The notes beneath the pieces are model-generated. The model saw nothing but the letters and a program-made list of their open reading frames with translations. It made no database searches and was not told the origin of the DNA. This document shows, one piece after another, positions 35,843-56,952 of a stretch of DNA of 64,000 bases. Source of the DNA: a bacterium. GTDB lineage: Bacteria; Myxococcota_A; UBA9160; UBA4427. The first letter of the stretch is position 1; every line of letters begins with the position of its first letter. The DNA lies in assembly GCA_024742285.1 (NCBI GenBank), contig JANSYR010000011.1, forward strand, positions 62,001 to 126,000, in the 5' to 3' direction. Both the position numbers and the translations under genes were made by a program.

Positions 35843-35871
35843 TTGACTCCCGAACCCGATTCGTTTATAAA
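35843..35871 (+). promoter_or_regulatory. Promoter of tRNA-Gly
   Basis: TTGACT (35843-35848) and TATAAA (35866-35871) are separated by the ideal 17 bases, 86 bases before the tRNA. The -10 box also contains the stop codon of the antisense integrase frame. Confidence 0.7.
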
Positions 35872-37211
35872 ATGCGGCCCGTCGCGGTGATCCAGCCACC
35901 GCCTCCCACGCTCCACGCCGGGCGAGGGCCACGACGGCCGACAGATTCAGTGATTACGCACGAGTAGCTCAGCTGGTAGAGCATCACGTTGCCAACGTGA
36001 GGGTCGCCAGTTCGAATCTGGTCTCGTGCTCCATCAAATCGCAAGCGCTTCCGACCATTTACGGCGGGAGCGCTTGCTGCTTTTGGGGGTCTCTGGTCCG
36101 GTTTGGTCCGGCTTTGGTCCGGCGTGGCGTCCGCAAGAAAATCGAGCTCATCCTCCGGCGCGGTCATCAGGTGCGAATAGGTCCGCAGCGTGATCTCCGC
36201 GGAGGCGTGTCCGAGGACCGTCTGAACCCACTTGATCGAGCGGCCCGCGTCGAGTGCCCAGCTCGCGAAGGTGTGCCGGGCGCAATGGAAGTGGAGCTTT
36301 CGCACGCCGTGCTGCTCGTTCGCGGACTTGCGCAGCCGATCGAACCCGCGTGCGAAATTGCGCTCGTCCCATCGCAGGCCCCGCGGTGAGAGGAAGACGT
36401 AGTCGTCTCCCGAGGGATCGCTCGCGCCGTCGCGGAGGTCGCCGAGAACGCGTCGTAGCGGGGCGGAGATCGGTACCTCGCGGGAGCGCCCGCTCTTGGG
36501 TGTCGTGACATGACCACGGACCAGCGCGCGGCGCACCCGAATTTTGTCTGCCCCCACGTCCTCCCAGCGGAGGCCGAGGATCTCGCCGCGCCGCATGCCC
36601 GTGTGGATCGCGCAGGTCAGGGGAGCCAGCAGCAGTGGCTCCTCTTCCCGAGCGACGTTCAGGAGCTCCTTCACCTCGGATCGCGTCCAGGCGTCGATAT
36701 CCCGAGGTTCATGCTCGAACCGTCGTGCGACTCGGGCGACGATTCTCCCGGATCCGAGGGCTGGATTTCGATTCAGCAGCCCTTCCTCCACATGAAGTGC
36801 ACAGACTCGCCGGACGACCGAAAGCGCCGTCTCGACGGTGCGCGGAGCGAGGCCCGATTCGAGCTTGGCATGGGCGAACTCGATCAGATCCTCACGCGAT
36901 AGATTTCTGAGGTCTACAGAACCAAAATGTGGGCTGAGATGGTTTCGGATCAAGCTGCGCGCGTTCGCCTCGGTACTGCGCGCGAGTTCGGGGCCGTGGC
37001 TCGCGAGCCAGCCGTCGAGACATCGATCGAGGGGTAGCGCGCCCTGTCGGAGCCAGGCGCTACGTCCGCTCGAGCGCCGGTTGATCTCCTCGGCCATGGC
37101 GATGGCTTCGGACTCGCTGGCGCATTTCTCGTCGAACTGCTTTCCGTCCGCGTAGACCCGGACGAACCAGCCGCGTCCCGGTCGATGTCTCACTTTCGCG
37201 CTCATTATCAC
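35865..37211 (-). CDS. Tyrosine-type site-specific integrase
   Basis: The 448-residue recombinase has an N-terminal arm-binding region, a SAM-like core-binding domain, and a catalytic domain with Arg in HTGMRRGEILGLRWEDV, HCARHTFASWALD (HxxR), the second His in VLGHASAEITL and the tyrosine in RTYSHL. GTG 37211 is favoured, with AAGGTGG upstream; ATG 37205 is two codons later. The last 50 or so residues are read antisense through tRNA-Gly and into its promoter, so they are set by the integration site. The gene lies four bases after an excisionase-like gene. Confidence 0.93.
   Translation of the reverse strand: MIMSAKVRHRPGRGWFVRVYADGKQFDEKCASESEAIAMAEEINRRSSGRSAWLRQGALPLDRCLDGWLASHGPELARSTEANARSLIRNHLSPHFGSVDLRNLSREDLIEFAHAKLESGLAPRTVETALSVVRRVCALHVEEGLLNRNPALGSGRIVARVARRFEHEPRDIDAWTRSEVKELLNVAREEEPLLLAPLTCAIHTGMRRGEILGLRWEDVGADKIRVRRALVRGHVTTPKSGRSREVPISAPLRRVLGDLRDGASDPSGDDYVFLSPRGLRWDERNFARGFDRLRKSANEQHGVRKLHFHCARHTFASWALDAGRSIKWVQTVLGHASAEITLRTYSHLMTAPEDELDFLADATPDQSRTKPDQRPPKAASAPAVNGRKRLRFDGARDQIRTGDPHVGNVMLYQLSYSCVITESVGRRGPRPAWSVGGGGWITATGRIL
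35958..36033 (+). tRNA. tRNA-Gly(GCC)
   Basis: A complete cloverleaf can be drawn. The acceptor stem GCACGAG pairs with CTCGTGC, the D arm is GCTC/GAGC, and the anticodon stem TCACG/CGTGA carries the loop TTGCCAA with anticodon GCC (35991-35993). The T arm is GCCAG/CTGGT with the loop TTCGAAT. The discriminator base is T and CCA is encoded. The 3' end is the likely integration target of the neighbouring island. Confidence 0.97.
36041..36077 (+). terminator. Inverted repeat and T tract after tRNA-Gly
   Basis: GCAAGCGCT at 36041-36049 and AGCGCTTGC at 36069-36077 form a 9-bp stem with a 19-base loop, followed by TGCTTTT. It begins eight bases after the tRNA and may end its transcript. Three copies of TTGGTCCGG-like sequence follow at about 36095-36123 and could be integrase arm sites. 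Confidence 0.4.
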
Positions 37212-37215: not shown

Positions 37216-37494
37216 CTACCCCACCTTTCGGATCAGTCGATCCACGCGTGTCTGGACATCCGGACGTTGGTCTGGCTCAGCGTGAGGGTCATCATCGGGA
37301 CCGATCTCTCCGATCCAGACGCGGAAGGCTCGCGTGGGAACCACCCGTACACGTCCAAGCCGCCGGCTCTCAAGACGGCCCGATCGGATCGCCTCTGAAA
37401 CAGTCCTTCGGGAAAGGCCGGAGAGCTCGACGCATTCGTCGATTCGAAGATGGGGGAGCTCCCGCCAGGGGACGTCGTCTCTCTTGATACCCAT
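37216..37494 (-). CDS. Excisionase-like helix-turn-helix protein
   Basis: The 92-residue protein contains a MerR/AlpA-type helix-turn-helix: LRIDECVELSGLSRRTVSEA, then IRSGRLESRRLGRVRVVP, the pattern of excisionase-family DNA-binding domains. It ends four bases before the integrase start, the usual xis-int order. It probably directs excision or regulates the integrase. The C-terminal tail is acidic then basic and without a known domain. Confidence 0.75.
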   Translation of the reverse strand: MGIKRDDVPWRELPHLRIDECVELSGLSRRTVSEAIRSGRLESRRLGRVRVVPTRAFRVWIGEIGPDDDPHAEPDQRPDVQTRVDRLIRKVG

Positions 37495-37553: not shown

Positions 37554-39716
37554 TCAGAACGATTTGCCAGACGAGCGACTGCCGGTCCCGAGGAGGCGCT
37601 CCAACACCTCTCGAAAGTCGACGAGGCGAGCCACTTCGATGGTGATTCCTTGTCGGAGTTCAGCTTCATGCTCCGACTCGACCTTCGCCCTGATCAGCTG
37701 CATGCGAGAAGGGGACTCGACGAGACTCACGATCGTTTCGAATCCGGCGGTTATATCCTTTCGAATGTTCGCCATCTCGTGTCCCGGGCTGGTCTCGACC
37801 TCGCATGCAACTGGTGCGACCGATTCGAGGCGAATCGTTACGTCGACCCGCGCGCCACTCGATTCGTCTTCGATGTCGGACTTGGCCCCCAGTCCGACCG
37901 CGAAATCTCTCAGTGCCGCTACCCACCACATGTGGACCGGGCCTCCCCTCCCAAGTCCGTGTTGTTCGATTCTGACGCCGAGAGAATCAAGAAGCGCGTG
38001 GCCAGCCGGGGTGATCTCGAGCAGAACCCGCGAGCTTCCTCGCGTGCCAGGATTGACGCGGCGTTGTTTGATAAGTCCCTCCGCTTGGAGGCGCGCCCTC
38101 ATGTTGTTCCCCTTCCATGCACTGATGTGTAGACGCTTGTCTCGCGCCGTCGTCGAGTCCACTGGACTCCCTGCTATGGCTTCGAGGTAATCGAGGTCTT
38201 CCTTCTTCAGCGTACGCGGCAGCTGAGGGGGTTGACTCTCCTGGTCGCTAGGATCGGATGCTTCGCTCTGAGTTTTCCTCGGACCGGCCGCGGATTCGCG
38301 CCCGCCCTCGGTCTTCACCTCGACTGGCCTTCCGGGCCAATCCGAGAACTCGGGCGCCGGAACGGTCGGGATGTGATCGAGCGCTGACACGCTTTGGGCG
38401 ACGTCCTCGTCCGTGACGGTCGGTGGTACCTTGACTTCTGGAATCGAAAGAAGCATCGGATGTCGCCATCGACCGTCGGCAGTCTGAACGATGTATCGTC
38501 CCGCTTCCAAGTTGTGCTTCGCCCACTGGATCTGCTCGCGCGAGAGCCCCATGTCGCCGCCGAAACGCACATAGTCGTCGGCGGTCCCAAGCGGCCCGAC
38601 GTATCGCGTCCCCATGTTCGCGCTGAGGCTCTTCGGCAGCCCTATGCCCGTCTGAACGTTTCCGAGCAGTGCCAGGCCGCTCCCGCGGATCAGACCCGCC
38701 TGCTCGATCACCGTCGGGTTCACGATGTCGCCTCCCGACGGTTCGCTGAAGAATCGCTGGCTGTCTTCGAGTGCGATCACGAGCGAAAGCGGGCCGTTTA
38801 CGATTCCCTCATCGATCTTGTCGTTGAAGATCGAAGACAGTGTGGTCTCGAGCATGATTTGCTTCGCGCTCTCCGAGGCATCCTTCATCTCCAAGACGAT
38901 CGAGTGCTCCGCGAAAACCGATGCTGGCCATCCACGCTTCCACGCATTGCGGTGAAACGGGTGAGACTCGACGAGTGAACCGACTCGGTCGAGAACCGCG
39001 TCTCTCGCAGCGGGGTTCTGGCCGCGCTTAGACTCTATTCGAACGAGGGCTTGCTGCAGGCAGGGCCATTCCGTGCGCGGCCCGTCGAAGATGCCGTACT
39101 CGGCGTAGAGCTCATGGATCGTCGTTCTGAAGAGAGCGCGTGCCCTAGACGGGAGTCCAACGCGTGAGGCAAGGATGTCCGAAAACCGCGCGGCGTGGGC
39201 AATGGGATCGCGATCGTCCGACTGAAGCGGATTGAAAGGCCAGGCGCGCGGTGTGAGGACGATGAGCTCTTTCCCGCATCGCGCAAAATACGGGAGCAGA
39301 TGACGGGCCTGCGTCTTGTACATGTCGAGTAACATAAGGGCGACGTTCCGCATCGCCGCCCATTGGAGCGCGTGAAACGCAAGCAGATTGGATTTCCCTG
39401 CTCCCGTATGTCCGGCGATCAGTGTTCCGCGCGTCAAGGAGTCTCGAGGAACACGGATCGGCCGGCCGTCATCCAGGAAGCCGAGAATGAAGTCGCCCTC
39501 AAGAGGAGGGGGAACGCGGAACGGGACTTCCTCCCCGAATTTGGCTTTCATGCGGAGGGGGTGAGTGAGTTCGTAGATCATCTCGATGTCGGATGCGTCG
39601 GCCTCACCGGCGCGCCATACGTCCAATAGGCTCTGCCCGAGATCCGATTCGAACGCTCCGCGTTTCGACCCCCACACGATCTCATCGATCAGATCCTGTC
39701 GATCGCGCCTCGCCAT
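37554..39716 (-). CDS. HerA-type ATPase fused to winged-helix and nuclease-like domains (copy 1)
   Basis: The 720-residue protein has a HerA/TrwB-type P-loop motor: Walker A GHTGAGKSN at about 102-110 and a Walker B-like LSLVIALEDSQRF near 340. A proline- and serine-rich linker follows at about 460-510. After it comes a winged-helix-like region (ARLQAEGLIKQRRVNPG, LLEITPAGHALLDSLG) and a C-terminal domain with RVDVTIRL and ACEVET (623-642), like PD-(D/E)XK nuclease cores. The usual lysine is not obvious, so catalysis is uncertain. ATG 39716 overlaps the stop of the zinc protein by one base. Function could be DNA transfer, processing or defence. Confidence 0.75.
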   Translation of the reverse strand: MARRDRQDLIDEIVWGSKRGAFESDLGQSLLDVWRAGEADASDIEMIYELTHPLRMKAKFGEEVPFRVPPPLEGDFILGFLDDGRPIRVPRDSLTRGTLIAGHTGAGKSNLLAFHALQWAAMRNVALMLLDMYKTQARHLLPYFARCGKELIVLTPRAWPFNPLQSDDRDPIAHAARFSDILASRVGLPSRARALFRTTIHELYAEYGIFDGPRTEWPCLQQALVRIESKRGQNPAARDAVLDRVGSLVESHPFHRNAWKRGWPASVFAEHSIVLEMKDASESAKQIMLETTLSSIFNDKIDEGIVNGPLSLVIALEDSQRFFSEPSGGDIVNPTVIEQAGLIRGSGLALLGNVQTGIGLPKSLSANMGTRYVGPLGTADDYVRFGGDMGLSREQIQWAKHNLEAGRYIVQTADGRWRHPMLLSIPEVKVPPTVTDEDVAQSVSALDHIPTVPAPEFSDWPGRPVEVKTEGGRESAAGPRKTQSEASDPSDQESQPPQLPRTLKKEDLDYLEAIAGSPVDSTTARDKRLHISAWKGNNMRARLQAEGLIKQRRVNPGTRGSSRVLLEITPAGHALLDSLGVRIEQHGLGRGGPVHMWWVAALRDFAVGLGAKSDIEDESSGARVDVTIRLESVAPVACEVETSPGHEMANIRKDITAGFETIVSLVESPSRMQLIRAKVESEHEAELRQGITIEVARLVDFREVLERLLGTGSRSSGKSF

Positions 39717-40123
39717 CACCCACCCCGAAGAAGAGCCAGCGTTCGGGCAAGACCTCGGACGGGGGCCGTCCACAGCGCGCATTCAGGACACAGGTGTGCC
39801 CCGGACCCGTCGGTGCCGGCCTGTGCGTGCCGGCTGCAAATGCCCCGGCCACAGCGAGCGCACAGGTACCAGTGCAGGGCGCAGGCGACTCCCCGACAAA
39901 CCTGGCATCGCCCGCCGGCGGCGAGATCGGTCGCACTACAGCCACAGGTCTCGAAGTAGCGGTGCTCGACGACGACCGTTCGATCGATCGAGCCTTCCTC
40001 GGAGCGTGAAATGTTCACGGACCGAATCGGGACCATCGGGACCTCGCCCTGTTGGATGTCGTACTCGACGATCCGCTTCACCGGTCGTGATCGGTTTCTG
40101 AAGAGACGGCGAAATCCTGCCAT
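39716..40123 (-). CDS. Cysteine-rich zinc-finger protein
   Basis: The 135-residue protein has a C-terminal half packed with metal-binding pairs: CGC, CQVC, CALHWYLCARCGRGICSRHA and CPEC, resembling cross-braced B-box or treble-clef fingers. The N-terminal half is basic, then strand-forming. ATG 40123 has AAGGAG upstream. The stop overlaps the HerA ATPase start (TGATG), so the two are made together and may act together. It has no catalytic motif; a DNA- or protein-binding partner role is inferred. Confidence 0.65.
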   Translation of the reverse strand: MAGFRRLFRNRSRPVKRIVEYDIQQGEVPMVPIRSVNISRSEEGSIDRTVVVEHRYFETCGCSATDLAAGGRCQVCRGVACALHWYLCARCGRGICSRHAQAGTDGSGAHLCPECALWTAPVRGLARTLALLRGG

Positions 40124-40150
40124 TCAACATTCTCCTTCGGGGAGCTCGGT

Positions 40151-40327
40151 CTAGAAGAACCAGGGCGTGTTGAAGAACTCCGTGTCGAGGTATTCGAGGG
40201 CGAACCAGCACAGGCGAACGACCAGGTAGGTGGCGAGCAGCGCGATGGCGCCGAGCGCCGTACCGAACAGCATCCAGAGGAGGATCTGGAGGAGCCGCAG
40301 AAGCCAGAACAGATTGAATGGGTTCAC
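40151..40327 (-). CDS. 58-residue single-span membrane protein
   Basis: GTG 40327, with AGGAGG eight bases upstream, opens a 58-codon frame ending at TAG 40151. The product is very hydrophobic (FNLFWLLRLLQILLWMLFGT, then ALGAIALLATYLVVRLCWFA) and ends in the aromatic tail EFFNTPWFF. It fits between two genes of the operon with 27 bases on one side and 65 on the other. The strong ribosome site and clean membrane segments support a real small gene that is easy to miss. It is probably an inner-membrane subunit or anchor. Confidence 0.7.
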   Translation of the reverse strand: MNPFNLFWLLRLLQILLWMLFGTALGAIALLATYLVVRLCWFALEYLDTEFFNTPWFF

Positions 40328-40392
40328 CGTATGGGCCTCCTCTATGCTGGGGATGCAGGCGCACTCCTCGCGGGGATCTCCGAGGCGATTCG

Positions 40393-41358
40393 CTAGTCGG
40401 TGACAAGAATCCGTGCGGTGTTCTTGACCTCGGAGAGGAGGGAGCGACGACGCGAAGATCGCGCCCTGGCCTCCCTCTGCAGCACCCCACCCCGTACATC
40501 GGCGGGAGAGAATATGGGCATCGTCGGGGTCGAGAACTGTCGAGGAGGCAGTTCGAACATCCGCTCGAGAACCCAGCGGTCACGACGCCTCACGGCCAGC
40601 ACGAAGAACATGACCGGATCGACCCGGTCGATGAAGGCTACGCCCCGGCGCTCCCGATCGTCGGTGTCCTCAACAAGGATGTCGTGAACGACGGCACGTC
40701 GGAGATCGGTCCGGCGGGCATCCGGTTGGACTTCCTCGACGCGGATGTCGTAGTTGTTCCCCGAAGCACCGTCGATGAGCTCGATGCAGTCTTGGACCGG
40801 CACGCCCTCGAGAAAGGCCGCGGTGCGCGACGCAGTGGATGCGTGGGTAACGGCGCGTGCGCGTTCGGTTGGGTCGGCGTTCGCGGCCCAGTCGGTCATC
40901 TCCCGCGACGTCGTACGCTCACCTGCACCATCCGCGACGCGGTCGAGAAGCTTTTGGGTGCCGCTTCGCGCCGCTGTCATTCCCGGTCCGGAGGCGGCGA
41001 CGATCGCGTTGGAGAATCCGAGACCCCGCCCGGCGTGGCCGTCTGACAAGAGAAGGGCTGTTTGGTGGAGGTTGGGAAGCGTAGTCCCTTCCCAAATCGC
41101 TGCCGTGGCTGGTGCGTCGTCGATGAAGGTCGCGCAGTACGTCGCGTTCGATTCACGCGGCGCGCGGTCCTCCACGTGCGAGGTGGTGATCCCCTGCGAC
41201 CGCAGGTCCGTCGCCCGCTCGAGAGCCCGGCCCGGCTCCGGGTCCACGATCTGGACTTCGCTCTCGCGCACGCCGTCCGGCGCAAGTCGGAGCAGCTCCT
41301 GCAGGTGTGCGTTTCCGCCGCGGTTCATACCGTTGAGCTGGATGGTCTTCTTGGTCAT
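40393..41358 (-). CDS. Unknown protein of the island operon
   Basis: ATG 41358 has AAGGAG nine bases upstream and starts MTKKTIQLNGMNRGGNAHLQ; the frame extends further upstream but without a better start. The 321-residue product has a threonine/alanine-rich middle and no signal peptide, membrane helix or motif I recognise. Its C-terminal half (MFFVLAVRRRDRWVLERMFE) looks strand-rich. It lies between the vWA-like lipoprotein and the 58-residue membrane protein, so it is presumably part of the same machine. Confidence 0.65.
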   Translation of the reverse strand: MTKKTIQLNGMNRGGNAHLQELLRLAPDGVRESEVQIVDPEPGRALERATDLRSQGITTSHVEDRAPRESNATYCATFIDDAPATAAIWEGTTLPNLHQTALLLSDGHAGRGLGFSNAIVAASGPGMTAARSGTQKLLDRVADGAGERTTSREMTDWAANADPTERARAVTHASTASRTAAFLEGVPVQDCIELIDGASGNNYDIRVEEVQPDARRTDLRRAVVHDILVEDTDDRERRGVAFIDRVDPVMFFVLAVRRRDRWVLERMFELPPRQFSTPTMPIFSPADVRGGVLQREARARSSRRRSLLSEVKNTARILVTD

Positions 41359-41380
41359 GGTGATGTTCTCCTTGTGGGGG

Positions 41381-42097
41381 TCAGTCGATCCGGAAAAAAA
41401 TGCGGCGCGCCCTCGGCGCCCACTCGGCGAAGAACGCCTCGAAATCGCTCCGATCGCGCGTGTATTGCGCGACGTTGACCTTGCTGCCAATGAGGCCCGG
41501 CCAGGAGTAGACGCGGATCTCATCGGGGGGCTGGCCGACGCGAGGGCAGAGCTCGAGCATCCATCTCGGGGTCGGACTCTCGGCGGTCCCGGAGCTTCGT
41601 CTGAGCGCTCTCGACCGCGGACTCTCCTCGTGGAGGTCGCTGTAGAGGACGAGGCTGTAGGGCTCGGTCTGCGTCGCGGAAATCAGGTGCACCGCTTCGA
41701 GAAGGGGGGTCTCGCCGACACCGGACGGCAGGTCGCCGAGGGCCTTCTTCAGTTGGCTGACGAGATCCACGACCGCCGCTTTACGGGCTTGGAAGGCTGG
41801 CATGGCGAGCGTTGGAAACGTGAACGATCGACTCTCGGCCGGATACGGGGCGGAGGCCGGTGCGAGCCACCAGAGCGTATAGACGTCACCAGTTTCGCTG
41901 TGCAGAGCCCACGTCTTCATCGATTCGAGGGCCGCGTCGTGAATTCGCTTCGACACGGAGGGGCCGATGGATCCGCTGGTATCGACGAGAAGATTAAAAT
42001 TCGAGGTGTCTTCGCGACCACAACCGGCGAGGGCAGCGATGCAGAACAAGATGAGTGCACGGCGGTATTGCGTGGAGGGCTTCGTTCGTGCGCTCAT
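41381..42097 (-). CDS. Lipoprotein with von Willebrand A-like domain
   Basis: The 238-residue product has a lipoprotein signal (ALILFCIAALAGCG) with the lipobox cysteine near residue 26, then NLLVDTSGSIGPSVSKR. That holds the DxSGS metal-ion site of vWA domains at the start of the fold. Later segments (VGETPLLEAVHLISA, LVLYSDLHEES) match the T and D positions of the MIDAS. It would sit on the outside of a membrane and bind a partner protein. ATG 42097 overlaps the preceding stop (ATGA). Confidence 0.75.
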   Translation of the reverse strand: MSARTKPSTQYRRALILFCIAALAGCGREDTSNFNLLVDTSGSIGPSVSKRIHDAALESMKTWALHSETGDVYTLWWLAPASAPYPAESRSFTFPTLAMPAFQARKAAVVDLVSQLKKALGDLPSGVGETPLLEAVHLISATQTEPYSLVLYSDLHEESPRSRALRRSSGTAESPTPRWMLELCPRVGQPPDEIRVYSWPGLIGSKVNVAQYTRDRSDFEAFFAEWAPRARRIFFRID

Positions 42098-43356
42098 CGC
42101 TGCCTCCGCTCGTCGATTGCCCAGCGCGCGATTTGCCGCGCAGTCGAGTCGATTTCCCCCGAGAGTTCACGAAAGGCGCGCCGAACCTCTCGGTCGACCA
42201 ATCGTCTCGTCGCGGCCTGTTCGCCCAGGATCCGATTTTCGAGTCGGGCGATCTCGCGCGGAAGGGTCGTCTGGAAGAGGGACCGGGTCCGCGTCCGGAC
42301 CTCGCGACGGACAGCCGACCAGCGTCGGCGAAGCCGAGTGACGAGGGCTTGTGTTCTCGCGTCGACGACGCGATCCGCGTTCTGTGCGAGGAAGGCGGTC
42401 CGCTCGTCCAGTGCCTCGGTAGCGACCTCGACGGACTGCGTCGCCACCAACGGCATCACGAGCGGAGGGACGACGAAGAGGATGCCGATCCCGACGATGA
42501 AGCCGATGATGCGGGTTGACTCCCATGTCGGACTGACCTCAACCAACGACATCCGGAGGAAGGCGAGTACGACGGAGATGACGACGAGGCCCACGCCCGC
42601 CATCCAGCGGACAGCGGGCTTGGATTTCGAGTTTGTGGTCCAGTGCGCCAGTAAGAAGAGCACGAGGCTGGTGATGGGGCTCAGTACCGGGAGGAGTCGG
42701 CCCGCTGAGCCAGCCGTAGACCCGAGAATCGGGTCGAGGGTCATGAAGACCAACCCGGTCTCGAGGCACACGAGGCCGACGGCGGCTATTAGCCCAAGGG
42801 CGATCCGCCAGTGGAATCGATTCAGCTGTCCGAGTACGAGGCGCGCACGCTGGCTGGCGCGGACGGATTCCTCGTTCGGCGGCTCGTCAGGGAGCGGCGA
42901 CTCGATCGCGAGGCGAACTGAGTCCTCGTAGTCCTGACGGAGGTCGGAGAGCTGGACCCCGAGCGACTCGATTCGTGCCCGCCGGATCGCTATCGCGTCT
43001 CGGGCCCTTTCCGCGGCGGCCTCGCCGGCTTGGCGAACCCGATTTTCAAAGAGCATCCCGCGGACGCGGACTCGATTGCGATTCGCCTGCGTGCGGAACT
43101 CGAGCGCTATGGCGGCGAAGGCCTCGTCCTCGACGACGGGCTGGCCCGTGAGCTGCCCATACGTCACTCGGCTCAGGTATTGGCGGGTGGAACTCCGGAG
43201 AAAGGATCGAATCTCGCGGTAGCGAGTCCACCCGTTCCAAGCGTCGACGAGCGTCCATCGGCGGGTGGGTACAGGCGGTCGCGGATCGCGGACTTCTCGC
43301 GACGTGCGAGGGGGCGGGACCGGGAGGCCAGCGTCGTCGCCGTGATCGTCACGCAT
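42094..43356 (-). CDS. Coiled-coil membrane protein
   Basis: The 420-residue protein has long charged helices at about residues 50-175 and 315-420 around a central block of four hydrophobic segments (about 183-205, 222-240, 250-270 and 284-305). The flanking helices are rich in R, E and A with heptad spacing. No enzymatic motif is seen. ATG 43356 has GGAGAG upstream. The stop overlaps the vWA lipoprotein start. With that lipoprotein and the 58-residue protein it suggests an envelope-located complex. Confidence 0.7.
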   Translation of the reverse strand: MRDDHGDDAGLPVPPPRTSREVRDPRPPVPTRRWTLVDAWNGWTRYREIRSFLRSSTRQYLSRVTYGQLTGQPVVEDEAFAAIALEFRTQANRNRVRVRGMLFENRVRQAGEAAAERARDAIAIRRARIESLGVQLSDLRQDYEDSVRLAIESPLPDEPPNEESVRASQRARLVLGQLNRFHWRIALGLIAAVGLVCLETGLVFMTLDPILGSTAGSAGRLLPVLSPITSLVLFLLAHWTTNSKSKPAVRWMAGVGLVVISVVLAFLRMSLVEVSPTWESTRIIGFIVGIGILFVVPPLVMPLVATQSVEVATEALDERTAFLAQNADRVVDARTQALVTRLRRRWSAVRREVRTRTRSLFQTTLPREIARLENRILGEQAATRRLVDREVRRAFRELSGEIDSTARQIARWAIDERRQR

Positions 43357-43525
43357 CGGTGCTCTCCGAGGGGAGGGCGACAGCGACCTCGGCGAGACCG
43401 GGAATGGAGCGGCGGGGGCGACGCGGGGTAGCTCGGAACTCGCCGATCAGTTGGCGAACGAGCCGACCGGCGCGGCTCCGGAGCAAGGGGCGTCGTCGGT
43501 ATGGGCAGCAGCGAGCGTCTTGCAT
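43349..43525 (-). CDS. Small arginine-rich protein, candidate first gene of the operon
   Basis: ATG 43525 opens 58 codons with GGAGG ten bases upstream. The product (MQDARCCPYRRRPLLRSRAG at its start) is strongly basic. Its stop overlaps the next start by eight bases. It lies directly after the promoter palindrome. GC-rich DNA easily gives arginine-rich chance frames, so this is only a candidate. Confidence 0.35.
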   Translation of the reverse strand: MQDARCCPYRRRPLLRSRAGRLVRQLIGEFRATPRRPRRSIPGLAEVAVALPSESTDA

Positions 43526-43542
43526 CGAGACCCGACCTCCGA

Positions 43543-43562
43543 TCGTGTCTTGGTTGACACGA
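43543..43562. promoter_or_regulatory. Palindromic operator upstream of the HerA-1 operon
   Basis: TCGTGTCTTGGTTGACACGA is a perfect inverted repeat with 7-base arms and a 6-base centre. It lies just before the minus-strand operon. An AT-rich stretch (about 43,585-43,640) beyond it may hold the promoter. It is a likely binding site for an island regulator. The 43,563-43,798 stretch holds no gene that I can support. Confidence 0.5.
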
Positions 43563-43798
43563 CCCTAGCGGAGGATGGGTCCAAATCAATAAGTGTATTT
43601 TGGTTCTTTTAATTCTTGTCGAGAAAGTCGGGTCATAAAGTTTCAGGTCGCGTCAAGATGAGCCGAGGGGCTTCTCGTCTGAGTGACTGTCCGGATGTGT
43701 CCCCATGGGACCGTTCCGCTCGCTCGAGCGGATGTCATTCCTAATCCCCTCATACGTGGATTCTTGTCGTCCGGGAGCCCGCCGTTTCGCAGTCGTCA

Positions 43799-44692
43799 TC
43801 AGGCGGCCGACGAACGGGCCTCGAGGAGGTGCTCACAGAACGACCAGAAGGAATGCGTGAAGTCCGCGCCCATGGGCGCATGGAACTCGAGCTCCTTCTC
43901 GTCGTCGCCCATCGGAAAGAACCCGAAACATCGCGTGCCCGTCGTGGAGCGCCGGGGATTCCGGTACCGGAAGATTGCGTAGCGATGCCCGGGGACGAAG
44001 AACGGACTCGAGTCGCACGCAATGAGCCGGATTCTGTCGTCTAGCGGTAGGTCATTGGCGAGCGACTTCCGGACCTCCCTCTTGAGGCGCTCGACTGCCA
44101 CCGTGAGGCTGTCTACGCCGGGAATCGGGTAGAGGCCTTCGGAGGCTGCGCGTTTGAGCGCGGTCGGGCTCGGCACGAGGTAAATGAGGGTGGCGCCTCG
44201 AGTGACTGCGCGGCCCAACTGGGCCCCGAGTTCTTCGAGGTGCGCCGCTCTCGACTCCTCGGGCTGGCGATCGAAGCTGCAGTGGACGTAGATGTCGTCC
44301 TGGGTGAGCGCTTCGAACTGGGGCTGAATCTCCTTCGCCAAGTTCTCCTTGATCATTCGTCGGAGCTTGGGCAGTCGACCATCGATCTCCGAGTTGGCGA
44401 GTTCGATGCTGAGACCGTCGCGGGCGTCCCGTTGATCTCGCGTTCGCGTTCGGGCGGTCGAGCGCCCGCGGGTCCAATCGACGGCAAATTCGCGCTCGAG
44501 AATGTCGATCTCACTCGGAAGCCCCGCGACCCGTGCGATCGACGCGATGTCGGCTTTGGCGAAGCGGCCGTCTCGAAGCCACCCCTTCAGGGAGTCGTAG
44601 GGGACGTCGGCCTCGCGAGCCGCCGCCGCGATCGACAGGCCGCGCTCGCGGAAGGCTTCCTTGAGGACATCGCTCAATGCGGGTCTTTCCAA
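43799..44692 (-). CDS. Helix-turn-helix protein with unknown C-terminal domain
   Basis: The 297-residue protein has an N-terminal XRE-like helix-turn-helix (LKEAFRERGLSIAAAAREAD, then VPYDSLKGWLRDGRFAKADI). The C-terminal 200 residues are alpha/beta-like: DDIYVHCSFDRQPE, GATLIYLVPSP, a conserved-looking GTRCFGFFPMGDDEKELEFH, and a final helix FWSFCEHLL. I do not recognise that domain; it could sense a ligand. TTG 44692 is the start, with AGGAG seven to eight bases upstream. It lies between the two halves of the island and near two palindromes, so it is the likely master regulator. Confidence 0.65.
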   Translation of the reverse strand: MERPALSDVLKEAFRERGLSIAAAAREADVPYDSLKGWLRDGRFAKADIASIARVAGLPSEIDILEREFAVDWTRGRSTARTRTRDQRDARDGLSIELANSEIDGRLPKLRRMIKENLAKEIQPQFEALTQDDIYVHCSFDRQPEESRAAHLEELGAQLGRAVTRGATLIYLVPSPTALKRAASEGLYPIPGVDSLTVAVERLKREVRKSLANDLPLDDRIRLIACDSSPFFVPGHRYAIFRYRNPRRSTTGTRCFGFFPMGDDEKELEFHAPMGADFTHSFWSFCEHLLEARSSAA

Positions 44693-44789
44693 AACTGTCT
44701 CCTAGAACGGGTCTGCGGCCCAGGCGGGCTGGGCCTGGGCCTCGGCCTGGCTGACCACCACAAAATCATCCTAGCAGGTGAATATTAAT

Positions 44790-44817
44790 TTGCACCGATT
44801 ATAAACCGGTGTAGAGT
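44790..44817 (+). promoter_or_regulatory. Promoter with embedded palindrome for the plus-strand genes
   Basis: TTGCAC (44790-44795) and TAGAGT (44812-44817) are 16 bases apart. Between and over them lies CACCG-n9-CGGTG (44793-44811), an inverted repeat that could be an operator for the adjacent regulator. The region 44,760-44,815 is AT-rich and divergent between the regulator and the plus-strand genes. A hairpin GGCCCAG/CTGGGCC (44717-44735) lies in the regulator's leader. Confidence 0.4.
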
Positions 44818-44918
44818 CTCATGAGGCTGGGCAGGCTCAGAGATCCTGCCCAAAAGATTTCCCAGGGGGCGTGCAGGCCCAGGCTGTGTCGCGCCGCCGC
44901 TACCGGATCGGAGCGCCT

Positions 44919-45593
44919 ATGGCCGAGGAGCCCATCTCCACGCAGTGGCTACGACTTTTCCGGGGAACCCAGGCCCCGGAACTCTTCGTCCGCGACCTCG
45001 AGTCGCTCCTGGCGCTGCCAGCCGACGCGCAGAATGAAGTGGTGGCCCTTCTTCGCACTCGGGACACGATTCTGGCCGAGATTCAGCCGGAAGAATTGAG
45101 GGACCTGGAGCAGCGCACCGGCTCGAGCAGAGATGCTCTGACGAATGGATTCGACGTCGTGCGCTTCCTGCTCCGCGAGATCGCGACGTCCCGCGTCAGC
45201 GTTGAACAAGCGATCGAGGATCTCCGCACTCTTGGCCGTTCGGACGAGGACGTGGCTACCGTCGGCGGTCTCGTGCGGTCCTTGCTCGATACGCGGACCG
45301 ATCTGGTGGCTGAGGTTCGAAAAACCCGCCACGCGCTCGGTACGCTCGATACCGTCGATAGCCTGGCATTCGCAATCGACTTCCGCGCCGTCGAGGAGGA
45401 CGATGAGGTAGTTGACCTGGCTCCAGTTCTCATCGTTCGCATGGGGATCGACGGTCGCAAGGAGGATGTCGTGTTTCAGCTCAACCAGCGCCTGTTGGGC
45501 CAGTTCGTCCAACGATTCTCGGAACAGCAGGCGAAACTCGAGGCGGCCGCCGATCGCGTTTCTATCAATCCCACCGGACGTGGGACAGAGTAG
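44919..45593 (+). CDS. Unknown helical protein of the island (plus-strand gene 1)
   Basis: ATG 44919 with GGAG six bases upstream gives 224 residues. The N-terminal two-thirds are helical and acidic (FVRDLESLLALPADAQNEVV). The C-terminal third has strand-turn segments (VVDLAPVLIVRMGIDGRKED) followed by a helix rich in Q and E (LLGQFVQRFSEQQAKLEAAA). No motif is recognised. It is the first of three plus-strand genes that likely form a unit from the promoter at 44790. Confidence 0.6.
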   Translation: MAEEPISTQWLRLFRGTQAPELFVRDLESLLALPADAQNEVVALLRTRDTILAEIQPEELRDLEQRTGSSRDALTNGFDVVRFLLREIATSRVSVEQAIEDLRTLGRSDEDVATVGGLVRSLLDTRTDLVAEVRKTRHALGTLDTVDSLAFAIDFRAVEEDDEVVDLAPVLIVRMGIDGRKEDVVFQLNQRLLGQFVQRFSEQQAKLEAAADRVSINPTGRGTE

Positions 45594-45597
45594 CGAG

Positions 45598-46443
45598 ATG
45601 CAATCAAGTAGTTATTTCGGGTCGAATCTCGGCGACCGCCTCGGGCTACTAGGCTCCGATGAAATCGATCTCGATCTGGGCATAGGGTTCGTCGACTCAG
45701 GCTCGTCGTCTTCAGAAGCAGATCCGACTTGTTTCGACCTCTCAGCGAGGGCCTCCGGCGAAGGCCTGCTCTTGGGAGAACGGAGGCGCAGCCGTCTCCG
45801 GGCGCAGGCGCGAAAGATCGAGTCAGCTCACCAGAAGCCCTACTTGGGCGACGACGCTCCTGAACTGCTCCGCCACCGGAAGCTCGATGAGCGTGGTTCG
45901 CCTCGTCAGCCCGTGGAAGGCGATGTGGTTCGAGAGGTTGAGACGTCGTATCACGATTGGTCGGCTCTCGAGAATGAGATTGAGTCCGATGCTGTGCTCA
46001 GGGATCGAGTGACCGCGTTCAATACGACGAGCGATCTTGCGGGGGCGGCTCGCGACTCGCGATTTGTCCGATCAGTCCTCGAGTTCGATGATTGGTCGCT
46101 GCGGAAGAACCTTCTTGAGATGTGCGAGTTCCGCGGGATCGATCCGGGGCCTCGCATGGCGGCTGCCTGTGTGGCCTTTCTCGTGTTCGCTGAGACCCGA
46201 TTCGACCAAGCCGTGCCCTACCTGCTCTCCTATGTCGGATCCGCTTGCGAACGAGGACTACCGGATCCGCCAAGCGACTTGGCGGTCTACGCATTGTCGT
46301 GCATTTGCGAATCCGATGTTCCCGAACCGATCGGGTACCGATACCAGGATGACGATAGGGAACGTGTACTTCAGCAGGCGTGGGAGTACGCCCGATGCCG
46401 CTACGTCGTGTCGCGGAGCAAATACAGGTCGGGTGCAGGCTGA
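45598..46443 (+). CDS. Unknown protein of the island (plus-strand gene 2)
   Basis: ATG 45598 follows the previous stop by four bases and gives 281 residues. The protein begins with a serine-rich, acidic region (MQSSSYFGSNLGDRLGLLG). A basic helix and a C-terminal helical block follow (LRKNLLEMCEFRGIDPG, FAETRFDQAVPYLLSYVG). No catalytic motif or membrane segment is visible. Its end overlaps the start of the next gene by 49 bases. The function is unknown. Confidence 0.55.
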   Translation: MQSSSYFGSNLGDRLGLLGSDEIDLDLGIGFVDSGSSSSEADPTCFDLSARASGEGLLLGERRRSRLRAQARKIESAHQKPYLGDDAPELLRHRKLDERGSPRQPVEGDVVREVETSYHDWSALENEIESDAVLRDRVTAFNTTSDLAGAARDSRFVRSVLEFDDWSLRKNLLEMCEFRGIDPGPRMAAACVAFLVFAETRFDQAVPYLLSYVGSACERGLPDPPSDLAVYALSCICESDVPEPIGYRYQDDDRERVLQQAWEYARCRYVVSRSKYRSGAG

Positions 46444-47015
46444 GGACAAGTCGAGATCATCGGCGCATTCCCCACCTTCATTACGGTCCCGATTGGCGAG
46501 TGGTCGGCCCTCACGGCAGCCGAGCGATAGGGCGTCTACACAACATTGTCAGACTTTACGATGAGGAATGGCGCACAATCTTGATTGAGCGAGACCGTGA
46601 GCGCGTGCGCGAGTTTCAACGCGAAGATCCGCAATTTCGCCGACTCCCTTCTCTATCTCTGGATGAGTGCCTTCGGTGCAATTGTGTGGGGCAGGCGTTC
46701 GGGCTTCCCTACACAACCATCGATGTTCACGATCTCCATATCATTCTCGATGAAGTTGCTTTCGAGCAAAGACAGCCCGGCGAGTCGCAGCCCGGGGATC
46801 TCGTGATCTATCAAGCTTCGTCGGGCTTAGATGAACACGTTGGCGTGGTCGTCTCGGTCGAATCAGGCGATGTGCGGGTGAGGTCGAAATGGGGGAGCAG
46901 CTTCGAGTACGAACACAGGATCCTCGCGGTTCAGCCGCAGTGGAGGCATCGTGTTCAAATTCTTCATTCCGTGGAGGGCTGGCATAGGGCCGTAGTTCAC
47001 GAGCCGATCGTGTGA
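46395..47015 (+). CDS. Cysteine-peptidase-like protein (NlpC/CHAP-type fold, inferred)
   Basis: ATG 46395, with GGGAG eight bases upstream, gives 206 residues. The C-terminal half has the sequence order of NlpC/P60 or CHAP enzymes: LRCNCVGQAFG (possible nucleophile cysteine), then GDLVIYQASSGLDEHVGVVV (catalytic-type histidine) and a strand VRVRSKWGSS. This assignment rests on pattern only. No signal peptide is seen, so it would act in the cytoplasm or on the element's own product. It overlaps the preceding gene and faces the HerA-2 gene. Confidence 0.55.
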   Translation: MPLRRVAEQIQVGCRLRTSRDHRRIPHLHYGPDWRVVGPHGSRAIGRLHNIVRLYDEEWRTILIERDRERVREFQREDPQFRRLPSLSLDECLRCNCVGQAFGLPYTTIDVHDLHIILDEVAFEQRQPGESQPGDLVIYQASSGLDEHVGVVVSVESGDVRVRSKWGSSFEYEHRILAVQPQWRHRVQILHSVEGWHRAVVHEPIV

Positions 47016-47078
47016 CTGATGAGCCGGACGGGACGGTTCCCCGCCAGACGTACCTTTCGGTTGCTGGCTTTGCGCATT

Positions 47079-48962
47079 CTACGCGGTGTGACCACCCGTA
47101 AGCTCCCTATCTCTCAAGAGAAGATGAACGCGTCGTGCCGACTGGCTTGACAGGCCATCGACTACCTTTTGAATTCGGTCGGATGCGGCTTCGTTGGTCG
47201 CAACGATCCAGATCTGGGAGAAGTCGGAGTTGAGGCAGTTCTGGATGTTGTCTGCGACTGAGGATTTTCCGGTTTCGACCTCGATCGCGATGCGCTCTGA
47301 ATCCCTGGTCGCCACTACGTCGACCCGTCCGCCGAGCCGCGCTGCCTCCTTCGTAACGTCATAGCCGACCGCACGGAATTTCTCGACGTAGAACTCCTTC
47401 CAAAACGCATGCTCAATTGATTCGGAGCGGGAGCTCTCGGAGCCGCGTGTCAGTCGGTACGCGGCATGCGTGGGCCGCAGGACAAGCTTCTTTGTTTGGC
47501 CGACAGGAATAGATGCGGACGCGAGCAGGCCGCGAGCGATGAGTGAGTCCTTGAGCCGGGTCCCCCGGTCTGCGCTCAAACCGAGTCGTCGGTAGCGAGT
47601 ACGAACCGCGTCGAGTGGATGCTGATCGCAGTCCAGAAGAAAACGGATATCGAGCGACTCTGGAGCGCCGCCAATCGCGGCGCTGGAACCTATCGGGTCG
47701 GGTCCTGCGGGTAGTCTCCACCGGTAACTTGCTCGCACCCTTCCGCTGCGCAGATGGTGAGCAAGCACAGCATCCGTGACGCACCCCTTCGCAACTTCCT
47801 GTTTTGGGAAATGCACCATGAAGGGCTTCTGCCAGCGTCCCTGAAGCTTGACGATTCCGTCGCCCAGCGGGAGGCGGTTCAGGTACCGCTTCTGATTCTC
47901 TTGGAGCAGCATCATCGCGGCCGCTCGGTTGATGTCGGTCGGCTCCTTGAGATTTAGGCAGATGCTCGTGTAGGTGTTGCCGAGCGCGGCGCTGCTGATG
48001 AGGTGCGGGTGCTGGTCGACAACGACAACGCCGATCCCCACCTCGCGGCATTGCCGGAGCAGTCGGTTCATCGCCGACTCCTTTGCTCGGTTTTCCTGGC
48101 GGTAGAGGAAGTGATGCGCCTCCTCGACGATGATCATCAGGCGGACCACCTCGCGATCGGGAGCCTGGAGTCGATGGTGGAATAGCCACGTCATGAGCGT
48201 CGACACGAGAAACTGCTGCGCCTTCTCGTCCAAGCCATCGAGCTCAATGATCGTGTTCTGCCCAAGAAGCTGATCAACCAGGCGGGATGGGTCGCTGGAA
48301 GCGGCCTCGAAGCCGCCTGCGAAGGTGAGGCTCTCTAGGGCTCGGACCATGGATGCCTTCCAGCCGACGGCTCGCCCTTGAACGTCGAGTTCACGCGCTG
48401 CCTGAAGAATCGAGTCGATCGTTGGCCAAGGCTGGCTTGGCCCGTACGCGCCTATAACGAGCTTCTGAAGCTGGCTTCTGGCTCCGTCCCCGAGAGTGAA
48501 GGCCGCCGCGAGGGCGTCTATGAGCTGCGCGACGTGGGCGCGGAGGTCCAGACCTGGGGGTGGTATCAGCGGATTGAACGAGAGCGGGGAAAGCGATCGC
48601 CCCGGCGTGAACAAGTTCGTGGCGCGTTTCAGCACTGGAAGCAAATGTCGCACGGTCCGTTTCGTGTCAAGAAATAGGAACGGGATGCCTTGCTGACCAA
48701 GCTGGCGGAGGAGCCCGAATACGATGTTCGTCTTGCCGCTTCCCGAGCGCCCGTAGAGGCCAATCCCCTGCAGCAGGTCCGCTCGGCTGAGCCCGAATGG
48801 ATGGGAAAGCTGGAGATACTTCACGCTGCCAAGATGAATCGGGCCGGCCGCGAGTGCTGCCGGGGGCGGGGGCAGCAGAATCGAATCCGCCCAATCGCCT
48901 AGGATCCTTCGGGCTGTGGCCCCTATATGTCGCTCCAGAAGCTGTCTGGATTCGGCATCCAA
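47079..48962 (-). CDS. HerA-type ATPase fused to nuclease-like domain (copy 2)
   Basis: The 627-residue protein has Walker A GRSGSGKTN at about 71-79, a FLDTKRTVRHLLP stretch, Walker B LMIIVEEAHHFLY near 290, and an arginine-finger-like RLLRQCREVGIGVVVVDQ. The C-terminal part has a winged-helix-like region (IRFLLDCDQHPLDAVRTRYR) and a nuclease-like core RVDVVATRDSERIAIEVETG (546-565). It shares RVDV...EVET with copy 1, although the rest differs. The start is uncertain: TTG 48962 has a poor ribosome site, and the frame is open up to the preceding stop at 49043. Likely a DNA motor or a processing enzyme. Confidence 0.72.
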   Translation of the reverse strand: MDAESRQLLERHIGATARRILGDWADSILLPPPPAALAAGPIHLGSVKYLQLSHPFGLSRADLLQGIGLYGRSGSGKTNIVFGLLRQLGQQGIPFLFLDTKRTVRHLLPVLKRATNLFTPGRSLSPLSFNPLIPPPGLDLRAHVAQLIDALAAAFTLGDGARSQLQKLVIGAYGPSQPWPTIDSILQAARELDVQGRAVGWKASMVRALESLTFAGGFEAASSDPSRLVDQLLGQNTIIELDGLDEKAQQFLVSTLMTWLFHHRLQAPDREVVRLMIIVEEAHHFLYRQENRAKESAMNRLLRQCREVGIGVVVVDQHPHLISSAALGNTYTSICLNLKEPTDINRAAAMMLLQENQKRYLNRLPLGDGIVKLQGRWQKPFMVHFPKQEVAKGCVTDAVLAHHLRSGRVRASYRWRLPAGPDPIGSSAAIGGAPESLDIRFLLDCDQHPLDAVRTRYRRLGLSADRGTRLKDSLIARGLLASASIPVGQTKKLVLRPTHAAYRLTRGSESSRSESIEHAFWKEFYVEKFRAVGYDVTKEAARLGGRVDVVATRDSERIAIEVETGKSSVADNIQNCLNSDFSQIWIVATNEAASDRIQKVVDGLSSQSARRVHLLLRDRELTGGHTA

Positions 48963-49042
48963 AAGGGGGAGGGCGCTTCTCCATCGCCGAACGCTGGAAC
49001 CGATGATCGGTTCCAGCTTCGCGAGGAGATCTGAGGTGGATT

Positions 49043-49471
49043 CTATTCTGTCCCTCCCAGACCAGCATGCTGCCGCAGGCGTTTGAAGAGCTCGTCCTGC
49101 AAGGCAGAGATGTCGCTCTCGTGGTCCCGCAATCGCCGCAAGCGATCCCGCTCCAGAGTGAGCAGCTGATTCTTGAGATTGTCGCGTGACTTAGCCCGAT
49201 ATCGCGGAATACGGGGCAAGTACGAATCCAGAGCCATGAGATCCGTTCCGATCCGGCACTGCGCGCGGAGAATTTCACGCAGATGGCCGCGGTGGAGGTC
49301 TCGGACGCGATCCAGCCTTTCCGAGAGTATTGCGATCTCGAGGCCGAGCTGAGCCCGCGGCGTACTGGGAGAGAACGCGGTCTGCGTTCGTCGAAACGAT
49401 CGCGCGATCGATTCGAGCCTCTCCGCTACTTTGGCCATGGGCAACGATTGGCTCGTAGCTGGAGCCATTGA
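49043..49471 (-). CDS. Coiled-coil protein upstream of HerA-2
   Basis: From ATG 49471 the product is 142 residues, nearly all charged helix: VAERLESIARSFRRTQTAF, LGLEIAILSERLDRVRDLHR, then NQLLTLERDRLRRLRDHESD and LQDELFKRLRQH, with heptad spacing. Alternative starts lie at 49546 (GTG) and 49441. It overlaps the end of the winged-helix gene and lies just upstream of the HerA-2 frame. It may bridge or load the ATPase; this is inferred from context only. Confidence 0.6.
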   Translation of the reverse strand, partial: SMAPATSQSLPMAKVAERLESIARSFRRTQTAFSPSTPRAQLGLEIAILSERLDRVRDLHRGHLREILRAQCRIGTDLMALDSYLPRIPRYRAKSRDNLKNQLLTLERDRLRRLRDHESDISALQDELFKRLRQHAGLGGTE

Positions 49472-50202
49472 ATTTTCTTGCCTGGTTGCGTGAGCTCGTA
49501 GAAGGGGTGAGATCTCCTTCTCCGTGGAATCCGGCGGACCACGCACTGCGCATGAAGAAAGCGAATAGCGTCCCGCGCATTGTTTCCGCTCATGCGAATC
49601 GTTGCGTCGCGCATCTTTGCGAGCAGACGGATACGGGCCGGCTGCATCGGCTCGCGGAGCGCTCGGATGACGAGGCTTCGATGGGTCGAGCAGGTTCGTC
49701 CATAGAGCTCCCAGTCGAGGTCAGGATAGGTGAGTGTTGGTGGCTCGAGCTCTTGATCCCGATAGAGGCTGGCCTGCATCTTGGCCCCGCGTGTGGTGAG
49801 CCAGTAGACGCGATGGTTGACGGCTCCGGGATTGAGGCAGACTACGAGTCGATCCGCGTGAAGGCGGCGGAGAACGGCGCAGCATTCGCTACGCGGGACT
49901 CTCGCTCTCGCGGAGCACTGCGTCGCGGTCAGAGGCTGATCCACGACAACAAGGATTCGTTGGCGTCGATCCAAAGCAGGTAATCGAAGCAACCTGGGTG
50001 ATATCTGTGGAATACGCTTGTCCATGCGACGGGTTGTACGGCGCGCTCGCACTCGAATGCCACGAACGCGCGTGCGTCTAGACAGCGACTTCTCGGTTTT
50101 TAAAGCTTTCTCCGGATAGTTCGACGCTTCAGAGTTGACGCTTCTCGCCCCATCAGGGGTCTCGGCTGGATCGTGTGGATCTAGTACGGGAGCTCGCCTC
50201 AT
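49426..50202 (-). CDS. Tandem winged-helix DNA-binding protein
   Basis: The 258-residue protein has a basic, low-complexity N-terminal 60 residues. A winged helix follows (QCSARARVPRSECCAVLRRL, then a wing ending YWLTTRGAKM). A second winged-helix-like unit near the C-terminus is similar in layout (RIRLLAKMRDATIRM, ARDAIRFLHAQCVVRR, YELTQPGKKI). ATG 50202 has GGAGG upstream and overlaps the preceding stop (ATGA); ATG 50025 is an alternative that begins closer to the fold. It may regulate the module or deliver DNA to HerA-2. Confidence 0.65.
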   Translation of the reverse strand: MRRAPVLDPHDPAETPDGARSVNSEASNYPEKALKTEKSLSRRTRVRGIRVRARRTTRRMDKRIPQISPRLLRLPALDRRQRILVVVDQPLTATQCSARARVPRSECCAVLRRLHADRLVVCLNPGAVNHRVYWLTTRGAKMQASLYRDQELEPPTLTYPDLDWELYGRTCSTHRSLVIRALREPMQPARIRLLAKMRDATIRMSGNNARDAIRFLHAQCVVRRIPRRRRSHPFYELTQPGKKIQWLQLRANRCPWPK

Positions 50203-55475: not shown

Positions 55476-55478
55476 GAA

Positions 55479-56702: not shown

Positions 56703-56733
56703 TTGTAGATTTCCTCCTGTTGATGGATCCGAT

Positions 56734-56952
56734 CTATGCAGCCTTGAACGAAATCTCGACGGACCGCGGTCCCCGCAACGCCAACGAGTCGAGCACGGGG
56801 ATCTCTTCTGCCGTCTGCTCGAGATCCCAGCAGCGTTTCCAGCGCGATTCGAGCTTCGAGTCGTGCGAGGGATGCGCCGAGGCAAAAAGAGTCATCGGGA
56901 ACGAGTGCTTCTCGATTTGCGTTCCTGCGAGTTCGACGGCCTGCGCGGTCAT
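56734..56952 (-). pseudogene. Decayed P450 3' fragment
   Basis: One minus frame encodes VELAGTQIEKHSFPMTLFAS and later EIPVLDSLALRGPRSVEISF, matching the C-terminal region of the P450 at 58,986. The heme loop between them (SFCLGASLARLEARIALETL) is present but in another frame. About 25 residues before it are deleted. So the fragment has an internal deletion and two frame changes. A 72-codon frame from ATG 56952 is still open, but it cannot make a P450. The rest of the gene is absent. Confidence 0.8.

Follow-up and report, generated by a model that had tools for sequence, protein, structure and literature searches.

Two genes in a 64,000-nucleotide stretch of a bacterial genome assigned to Myxococcota_A (assembly GCA_024742285.1, contig JANSYR010000011.1, positions 62,001 to 126,000 of the forward strand; the whole of this stretch is termed the window and supplies the coordinates used here) encode divergent HerA-type ATPases, HerA1 and HerA2. 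Comparison with related loci gives good sequence support for these two as the core conserved across a family of mobile elements that integrate at tRNA genes and are seen in several phyla. That they are the motors of these elements, and form the core of a relaxase-independent transfer system like that of ICETh1 of Thermus thermophilus, we judge to have an even chance of being correct. The broader proposal is offered more tentatively, at somewhat below even: that these are a new class of self-transmissible integrative elements, found in several bacterial phyla, with two HerA ATPase-nuclease motors and neither relaxase nor type IV secretion system.

Both large open reading frames, given as 720 and 627 residues in a first-pass annotation of the sequence, are present, and both products have the HerA-like motor motifs it reported (Walker A GHTGAGKSN in HerA1 and GRSGSGKTN in HerA2) together with a C-terminal RVDV...EVET; the minus-strand partner genes overlap tightly, as it described. 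The count of 720 amino acids (aa) for HerA1 is from position 39716 and becomes 742 if the first ATG is used. The start of HerA2 has moved upstream. Its frame runs on 5′ of the TTG at 48962 with STSDLLAKLEPIIGSSVRRWRSALPLL, which matches the N-terminus of the family; on this alignment the TTG is too late a start, with the conserved N-terminus beginning about 28 codons upstream, and decoding probably starts at the ATA codon at 49046 behind GGGAGG. The ATA (49044-49046) shares bases with the stop of the coiled-coil gene (ATAG), and relatives have ordinary start codons there; either an uncommon start codon or an error in the sequence would account for it. The HerA2 ATPase scores 26.4 bits against Pfam DUF87, the HerA central domain, which is above the cut-off of 23.2, whereas HerA1 reaches 12.5 bits and is too divergent for that cut-off. 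The match of the two proteins to each other covers the ATPase (E about 1e-10). By these sequence measures both are divergent HerA-type ATPases, and in the tree HerA1 and 16 relatives form one clade (support 100/100).

The island that carries them is 46.3 kb, from 35989 to about 82368 in window coordinates. Its left border is the 3′ end of tRNA-Gly. The right repeat, 45 bp and 100% identical to that end, is outside the window at window coordinate 82324-82368 (144324-144368 of contig C11 in the host genome, G000); a second copy of the tRNA end was sought inside the window and none was found, the copy being 46 kb away. The sequence behind the intact tRNA in G006, a relative of the same genus, resembles the sequence after attR and not that after attL, as expected of insertion. 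An integrative mobile element at a tRNA gene is well supported by the recombinase beside the tRNA and by tRNA direct repeats at both borders. The integrase family of that recombinase, int1, adjoins HerA1 in 11 loci, the window included. The int1 frame reads through the tRNA antisense (ARDQIRTGDPHVGNVMLYQLSYS, window 35865-36033), so that integration or excision may alter the C-terminus of the protein. Additional copies of 28-31 bp of the tRNA-Gly 3′ end are present behind the island at G000:C11:144548-144576 and 147568-147595, and among relatives at G006:C80:80973-81001 and in G006:C135; from their sequence, the gene is a repeated insertion hotspot in the genus, with apparent remnants of earlier elements.

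Whole-protein searches with both proteins, over 148 relatives and 379 genomes of the phylum, gave no full-length relative. A search with HerA2 alone for related loci in the genome contigs found none, and plasmid and phage collections gave only ATPase-level matches to HerA2 (HerA1 had none in plasmids), with no recognisable shared partner in the neighbourhoods of the plasmid matches. The family was found by scanning 84,980 genomes for the DNA pattern G-RVDV-x11-E[VI]ETG. All but four of the resulting 31 loci encode HerA2 relatives, 38-48% identical, of the same architecture and full-length where the contig allows. They are mostly from Planctomycetota (chiefly Phycisphaerae), the rest being from a Thermoanaerobaculia metagenome-assembled genome (MAG), a Woesearchaeota contig and an unplaced MAG. 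Loci L016, L017, L019 and L020, considered as relatives, were rejected as other ATPases.

HerA1 was not used in the pattern scan, and yet 13 of the 19 genomes which that scan delivered have relatives of HerA1, with 27-36% identity across as much as about 570 aa (the weaker HerA1 matches in these genomes are HerA2 itself or fragments). Among planctomycetes they are in 12 of 16 HerA2-bearing genomes, in contrast to 3 of the 293 genomes evenly drawn from the phylum (Fisher p about 6e-16; many of the planctomycete MAGs come from one project, and the 12 of 16 are not fully independent). Besides the window, there are 10 relatives with HerA1 and HerA2 on one contig. The recurrence together of the two gene sets, named by the first-pass annotation as a point to check, is borne out. 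The analysis also supports the homologues being something other than ordinary coupling proteins that have a known partner set. Homologues of two small genes next to HerA2, CC (coiled-coil) and WH (tandem winged-helix-like), are near HerA2 in about ten loci each. The even draw, of 294 planctomycetes, has HerA2 in six genomes besides the centre, and in four of the six (G422, G524, G684 and, weakly, G461) a HerA1-like ATPase is within about 30 kb, either with a gene like that for the cysteine-rich protein Zn1 or beside an int at a tRNA. One Phycisphaerae MAG, G379, has at least five copies of HerA2 and several of HerA1 (L043, L046, L051, L054, L065; L114-L116), which by sequence are several elements in one genome.

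Gene order is also conserved. In the window it is int-xis-HerA1-Zn1-TM58 ... HerA2-CC-WH-Zn-RadC-int2, and in G384 it is int-xis-nuclease-HerA1-Zn1-TM ... HerA2-CC-WH ... Zn-RadC ... int2, the G384 element being 34.6 kb between 73-bp tRNA-Ser direct repeats that are 98.6% identical. The G422 element (44.6 kb between 49-bp tRNA-Arg direct repeats, 100% identical) has within its repeats an int at tRNA-Arg, a HerA1-like gene, HerA2, WH, RadC and int2, and the order in G524 is tRNA-Phe-int ... HerA1-like-Zn1 ... HerA2-CC-methylase-WH ... int2-RadC (RadC was recognised by reading in both). Two contigs of G392 carry an int, one at tRNA-Phe and one at tRNA-Asp, and members of the int2 family are near HerA2 or WH in G384, G382, G393 and L045. 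ArdC and N6/N4-methylase genes are near HerA2 in relatives. What varies among elements are Hsp70/GrpE/vWA, kinase/PP2C and ThiF/JAB sets, M48 peptidases, methylases and ArdC. At the level of predicted genes the comparison shows a module A, TM58-Zn1-HerA1-nuclease beside xis/int1, and a module B, HerA2-CC-WH(-methylase)-RadC(-int2). These are two modules of one family of integrative elements and not two separate systems sharing an island. The earlier grouping of a membrane coiled-coil protein, a vWA-like lipoprotein and a 58-residue protein as one set stands in part: TM58 and the zinc protein are conserved, whereas the vWA/coiled-coil pair is an interchangeable accessory.

Both proteins end in a winged helix and an alpha-beta3-alpha-beta domain with a conserved E...RVDV...ExET. 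Their C-termini have 18 invariant columns in common with 18 relatives, and H, W, E, RVDV, ExETG, S and N are invariant in 25 HerA2 relatives, HerA1 having most of them. AlphaFold2 models give for both a winged helix followed by H-EEE-H-E (pLDDT 85 for HerA2), so that the alpha-beta-beta-beta-alpha-beta core of the PD-(D/E)XK superfamily is present in both predicted C-termini. Foldseek places that of HerA2 near Bax1, AF1548, VC1899 and the CRISPR ancillary nucleases Can2/Cdn1 (E 1e-4 to 5e-3, low TM-scores); for HerA1, winged helices (MarR) head the list and swamp the fold search. The acidic pattern E...D...ExE is invariant in 25 sequences, with ExE and not ExK, an arrangement which in the HerA2-family domain we take to be BamHI-like. 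The first-pass description of both proteins as ATPase-nuclease fusions holds for the predicted order of elements, the winged helix included, but the fused state does not define HerA1, since in 11 relatives the HerA1-linked domain has its own gene, of about 120-160 aa and immediately behind HerA1; the separate protein typically begins MRG..HN and has E, FVDL and ExE. The two are fused in the window and split in G384, its nearest relative in the tree (which has long branches, leaving the placement of the divergent HerA1-like proteins of G422, G524 and G684 unsure), and such fusion and fission argues that HerA1 and its nuclease-like partner work together.

A small membrane protein with a conserved C-terminus, like TM58, and usually a cysteine-rich protein precede HerA1 in about 12 loci, which suggests that the HerA1 motor is docked at the membrane. 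Together with WH and CC, HerA2 has the look of a complex that handles DNA in the cytosol. Once the element has been excised, the complex of module B would prepare the element DNA: WH and the HerA2 C-terminus would bind it, HerA2 would translocate it and the nuclease-like domain of HerA2 would cut or trim it. Module A, held to the membrane by TM58 and Zn1, would pump the DNA out of the cell, probably in double-stranded form and with no relaxase or type IV secretion channel, and RadC, ArdC and the lone methylases of the elements would protect it on arrival. Relaxase-independent transfer is favoured because no families of relaxases or type IV secretion systems were seen and because a Thermus element with a HerA pump donates DNA. 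Of the functions first suggested, namely transfer of the island, processing of its DNA and defence of the host, transfer appears to fit best.

The absence of conventional transfer genes has a defined scope. No relaxase or type IV secretion family is among the 25 commonest of 33 Pfam families in 52 proteins of two elements, and PF03135 (VirB4) and PF03432 (relaxase) have no match in the host genomes of G384, G422 and G524. The part of the window element beyond 64 kb was read by eye only for relaxase, VirB4 and coupling genes. A classical integrative and conjugative element (ICE) based on type IV secretion was rejected, as no relaxase or VirB4/coupling genes were seen in the elements scanned. 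In host G000 the only such matches, one to VirB4 and a weak one to relaxase, are on a different contig (C8:118990-126851) and probably belong to another ICE.

Several points weigh against HerA1 and HerA2 as transfer motors. The Pfam scan of 25 of 33 families is blind to unknown relaxases. No pore or pilus was recognised in the elements and TM58 alone is no channel; ComEC, found in four of four hosts checked, is compatible with uptake by a recipient but is common anyway. HerA2 is without a detected HerA1 in G396, G393, L057 and L072. The HerA1-like proteins of G422, G524 and G684 lack the second acid of ExE. Because of this loss, and because the motif is ExE and not ExK, cleavage by the nuclease-like domain is uncertain, and the HerA1-type domain may bind DNA instead of cutting it. 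The transfer step is our inference, and transfer, excision and nuclease activity alike rest on sequence.

HerA ATPases with nucleases are known defence proteins, and the HerA2 ATPase matches the PADLOC models mad8 (7e-15), DndH (4e-12) and HerA (7e-12); moreover, methylases and ThiF/JAB, Hsp70/GrpE/vWA and kinase/PP2C sets neighbour the relatives. Nevertheless, it is unlikely that HerA1 and HerA2 destroy incoming phage or plasmid DNA as the standard kit of a defence-bearing integrative element. The HerA pair is the invariant part of the element and the genes around it change, which is the opposite of what cargo usually shows; the order of the genes also links the pair to int/xis, RadC and ArdC. 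The anti-phage HerA model gives 27.5 bits against a cut-off of 800, no SIR2 or DUF4297 partner is in the families listed, and a PADLOC scan of the neighbours for mad and dnd gave only a weak mad1-like helix-turn-helix (HTH) match (E 0.065).

No greater probability attaches to the motors serving excision, segregation or replication within one cell, through DNA-end processing or dimer resolution, with the elements spreading by other means. HerA/FtsK motors do act in repair and segregation, the modules adjoin recombinases and RadC, and in the archaeal contig G393 HerA2 stands alone beside int2. However, the membrane protein locked to HerA1 is not obviously needed for such a role, and the conserved set is without a replication gene. 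Far less likely is a packaging motor of a virus-like or satellite element, in which ATPase plus nuclease would be the large terminase and WH/CC the small one: HerA2 residues 255-359 match a PHROG called terminase large subunit (7e-12) and FtsK-HerA motors package DNA in several virus groups, but the Pfam families listed for the two elements include no capsid or structural family, the phage collection has three HerA2 matches, all ATPase-only, and of the two motif scans made on viral contigs one yielded no match and the other five chance matches. Least likely of all are ordinary conjugative coupling proteins (VirD4/TrwB/TraD) of a decayed ICE, for which superfamily likeness and the tandem TrwB/HerA-type ATPases of locus L018 (4889-9924) in G055, from the same order, one with a similar C-terminal domain, can be cited, since TrwB_AAD_bind reaches 12.9 bits in HerA2 (cut-off 20.5) and has no match in HerA1, syntenic elements scanned in several phyla show no relaxase or VirB4 partner and the L018 ATPases fall outside both the HerA1 and the HerA2 clades. 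The larger L018 ATPase, of 975 aa, ends in an RVDV...EIS domain, and fused nuclease-like domains are found on coupling-protein-like ATPases of that order too.

Features of the window, in window coordinates
Feature	Position	Strand	Basis or remark
int1, tyrosine recombinase	35865..37211	-	Pfam Phage_integrase 6e-26; frame crosses tRNA antisense
tRNA-Gly(gcc), integration target	35958..36033	+	ARAGORN; last 45 bp (35989-36033) = attL
xis-like HTH_17 protein	37216..37494	-	Pfam HTH_17 4e-6; 68-aa HTH counterpart in same place in G384
HerA1: ATPase, winged helix, nuclease-like domain, 720 aa	37554..39716	-	sequence, profile matches, tree, model
HerA1 nuclease-like domain, residues about 593-709	37590..37940	-	alignment; model H-EEE-H-E order, pLDDT 86; separate gene in 11 relatives
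Zn1, cysteine-rich, HerA1 module	39716..40123	-	10 Cys; homologues directly upstream of HerA1
TM58, small membrane protein, HerA1 module, C-terminus F..PW	40151..40327	-	hydropathy; 12-member alignment
Open reading frame of 376 aa, probably internal start	40393..41523	-	no homologue found in related loci
vWA-like lipoprotein, accessory	41381..42097	-	lipobox and VDTSGS by reading; no Pfam vWA match
Membrane protein, 4 predicted transmembrane segments and coiled-coil flanks, accessory	42094..43356	-	
HTH regulator-like protein	43799..44692	-	weak HTH_31 match, E 0.026
240-aa protein	44871..45593	+	homologue in related element region L113, 28%, E 3e-30
HerA2: ATPase, winged helix, nuclease-like domain	47079..49046	-	627 aa if TTG 48962 is the start; probably 655 aa, with ATA 49046 as start
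HerA2 nuclease-like domain, residues about 516-616	47115..47417	-	H518, W521, E539, D548, E561-x-E563, N572
HerA2 winged helix, residues about 437-506	47445..47654	-	model
CC, small coiled-coil protein, HerA2 module	49043..49546	-	homologues just upstream of HerA2 in about 10 loci
WH, tandem winged-helix-like, HerA2 module	49426..50202	-	11 homologues near HerA2, 35-43% identical
Zn159, zinc protein	50199..50678	-	weak homologues in G382, G396, G384
RadC-like protein with SymE-like N-terminus	50786..51430	-	Pfam RadC 1e-39; 45% identical homologue in G384 element
int2, second tyrosine recombinase, C-terminal zinc ribbon	52068..53369	+	Pfam Phage_integrase 1e-11

The open reading frames of 258 aa for WH and 167 aa for CC are probably annotated too long, since homologues align only from residues about 72-79 and 36-41, respectively. 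In many planctomycete elements (L107, L108, L109, L113-L119) a triad of GrpE-like, Hsp70 and vWA genes is between HerA1 and the integrase, with kinase/PP2C or ThiF/JAB sets near HerA1 elsewhere; conflict systems with Hsp70/GrpE and kinase/PP2C/vWA sets are known in other contexts (PMC7159879). The cargo of the window island (window 53511-64000 and G000:C11:126001-144300, L031) includes MMPL, at least four cytochrome P450s, RND efflux with a TetR regulator, a Baeyer-Villiger-type monooxygenase, a Rieske oxygenase, thiolase-like proteins, an amidohydrolase and an alcohol dehydrogenase, and by its predicted products looks like a xenobiotic or terpenoid/steroid catabolic set.

Many integrated islands in uncultured phyla have no recognisable transfer genes. 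Such elements can be looked for with a concrete marker set, the syntenic core of about ten genes that includes two DNA pumps and lies at tRNA genes; it is present in Planctomycetota, the unplaced MAG and the window's phylum, and one Thermoanaerobaculia and one Woesearchaeota contig have the HerA2 half. No description of the gene set was found in the open-access literature, as distinct from subscription journals and preprints. If DNA transfer by the two HerA proteins is real, relaxase-free transfer would extend beyond the elements of actinomycetes and Thermus, and the window element, with its P450, oxygenase and efflux genes, may spread catabolic traits.

Among known systems, the HerA-NurA repair complex also joins a HerA-superfamily ATPase to a nuclease partner. 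HerA2, however, scores 35 bits where the NCBIfam HerA equivalog cut-off is 800-970 and HerA1 has no match, NurA is not matched, and the N-terminus is short, with hardly enough space for a HAS barrel ahead of the P-loop. Anti-phage HerA, MADS mad8 and DndH have an ATPase core similar to that of HerA2, but their equivalog cut-offs are not reached and their partner genes were not seen, and here a winged helix and nuclease-like domain are fused on. CedD/CedB of crenarchaeal DNA import are a two-ATPase DNA exchange system, and CedD is the best NCBIfam match of the HerA2 ATPase; the 63 bits are short of the 600-bit cut-off, Ced proteins have transmembrane/VirB4-like N-domains and the CedA channel was not found. 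Thaumarchaeota ICEs have paired VirB4/VirD4 and no relaxase (PMC6563490), and so are likewise integrative with two pump ATPases; theirs carry recognisable VirB4/VirB6/TadC and pilin genes, none of which was recognised here. The actinomycete ICEs (AICEs), with FtsK-type TraB, are integrative elements that spread relaxase-free by pumping double-stranded DNA, though HerA1 and HerA2 do not match FtsK_SpoIIIE and are a pair of HerA motors with nuclease-like domains.

The closest functional parallel, by analogy, would be TdtA with NurA in ICETh1. This 14-kb element of T. thermophilus is inserted at a tRNA, has a HerA-type pump, a nuclease and a methylase, and performs DNA donation (PMC5365140, PMC7767461), for which its HerA-type TdtA is essential (PMC5365140). 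It differs in having one motor and a separate nuclease of the NurA family, where the window family has two motors with PD-(D/E)XK-like domains, WH, CC, Zn1, TM58, RadC and int2; among the window proteins scanned there was no match to NurA or to a type IIG restriction enzyme, both of them ICETh1 traits. What the two share is insertion at a tRNA 3′ end with direct repeats, a PF01555 methylase (the same Pfam family is near HerA2 in relatives), and a HerA-type motor with a nuclease in an unconventional, pump-driven element.

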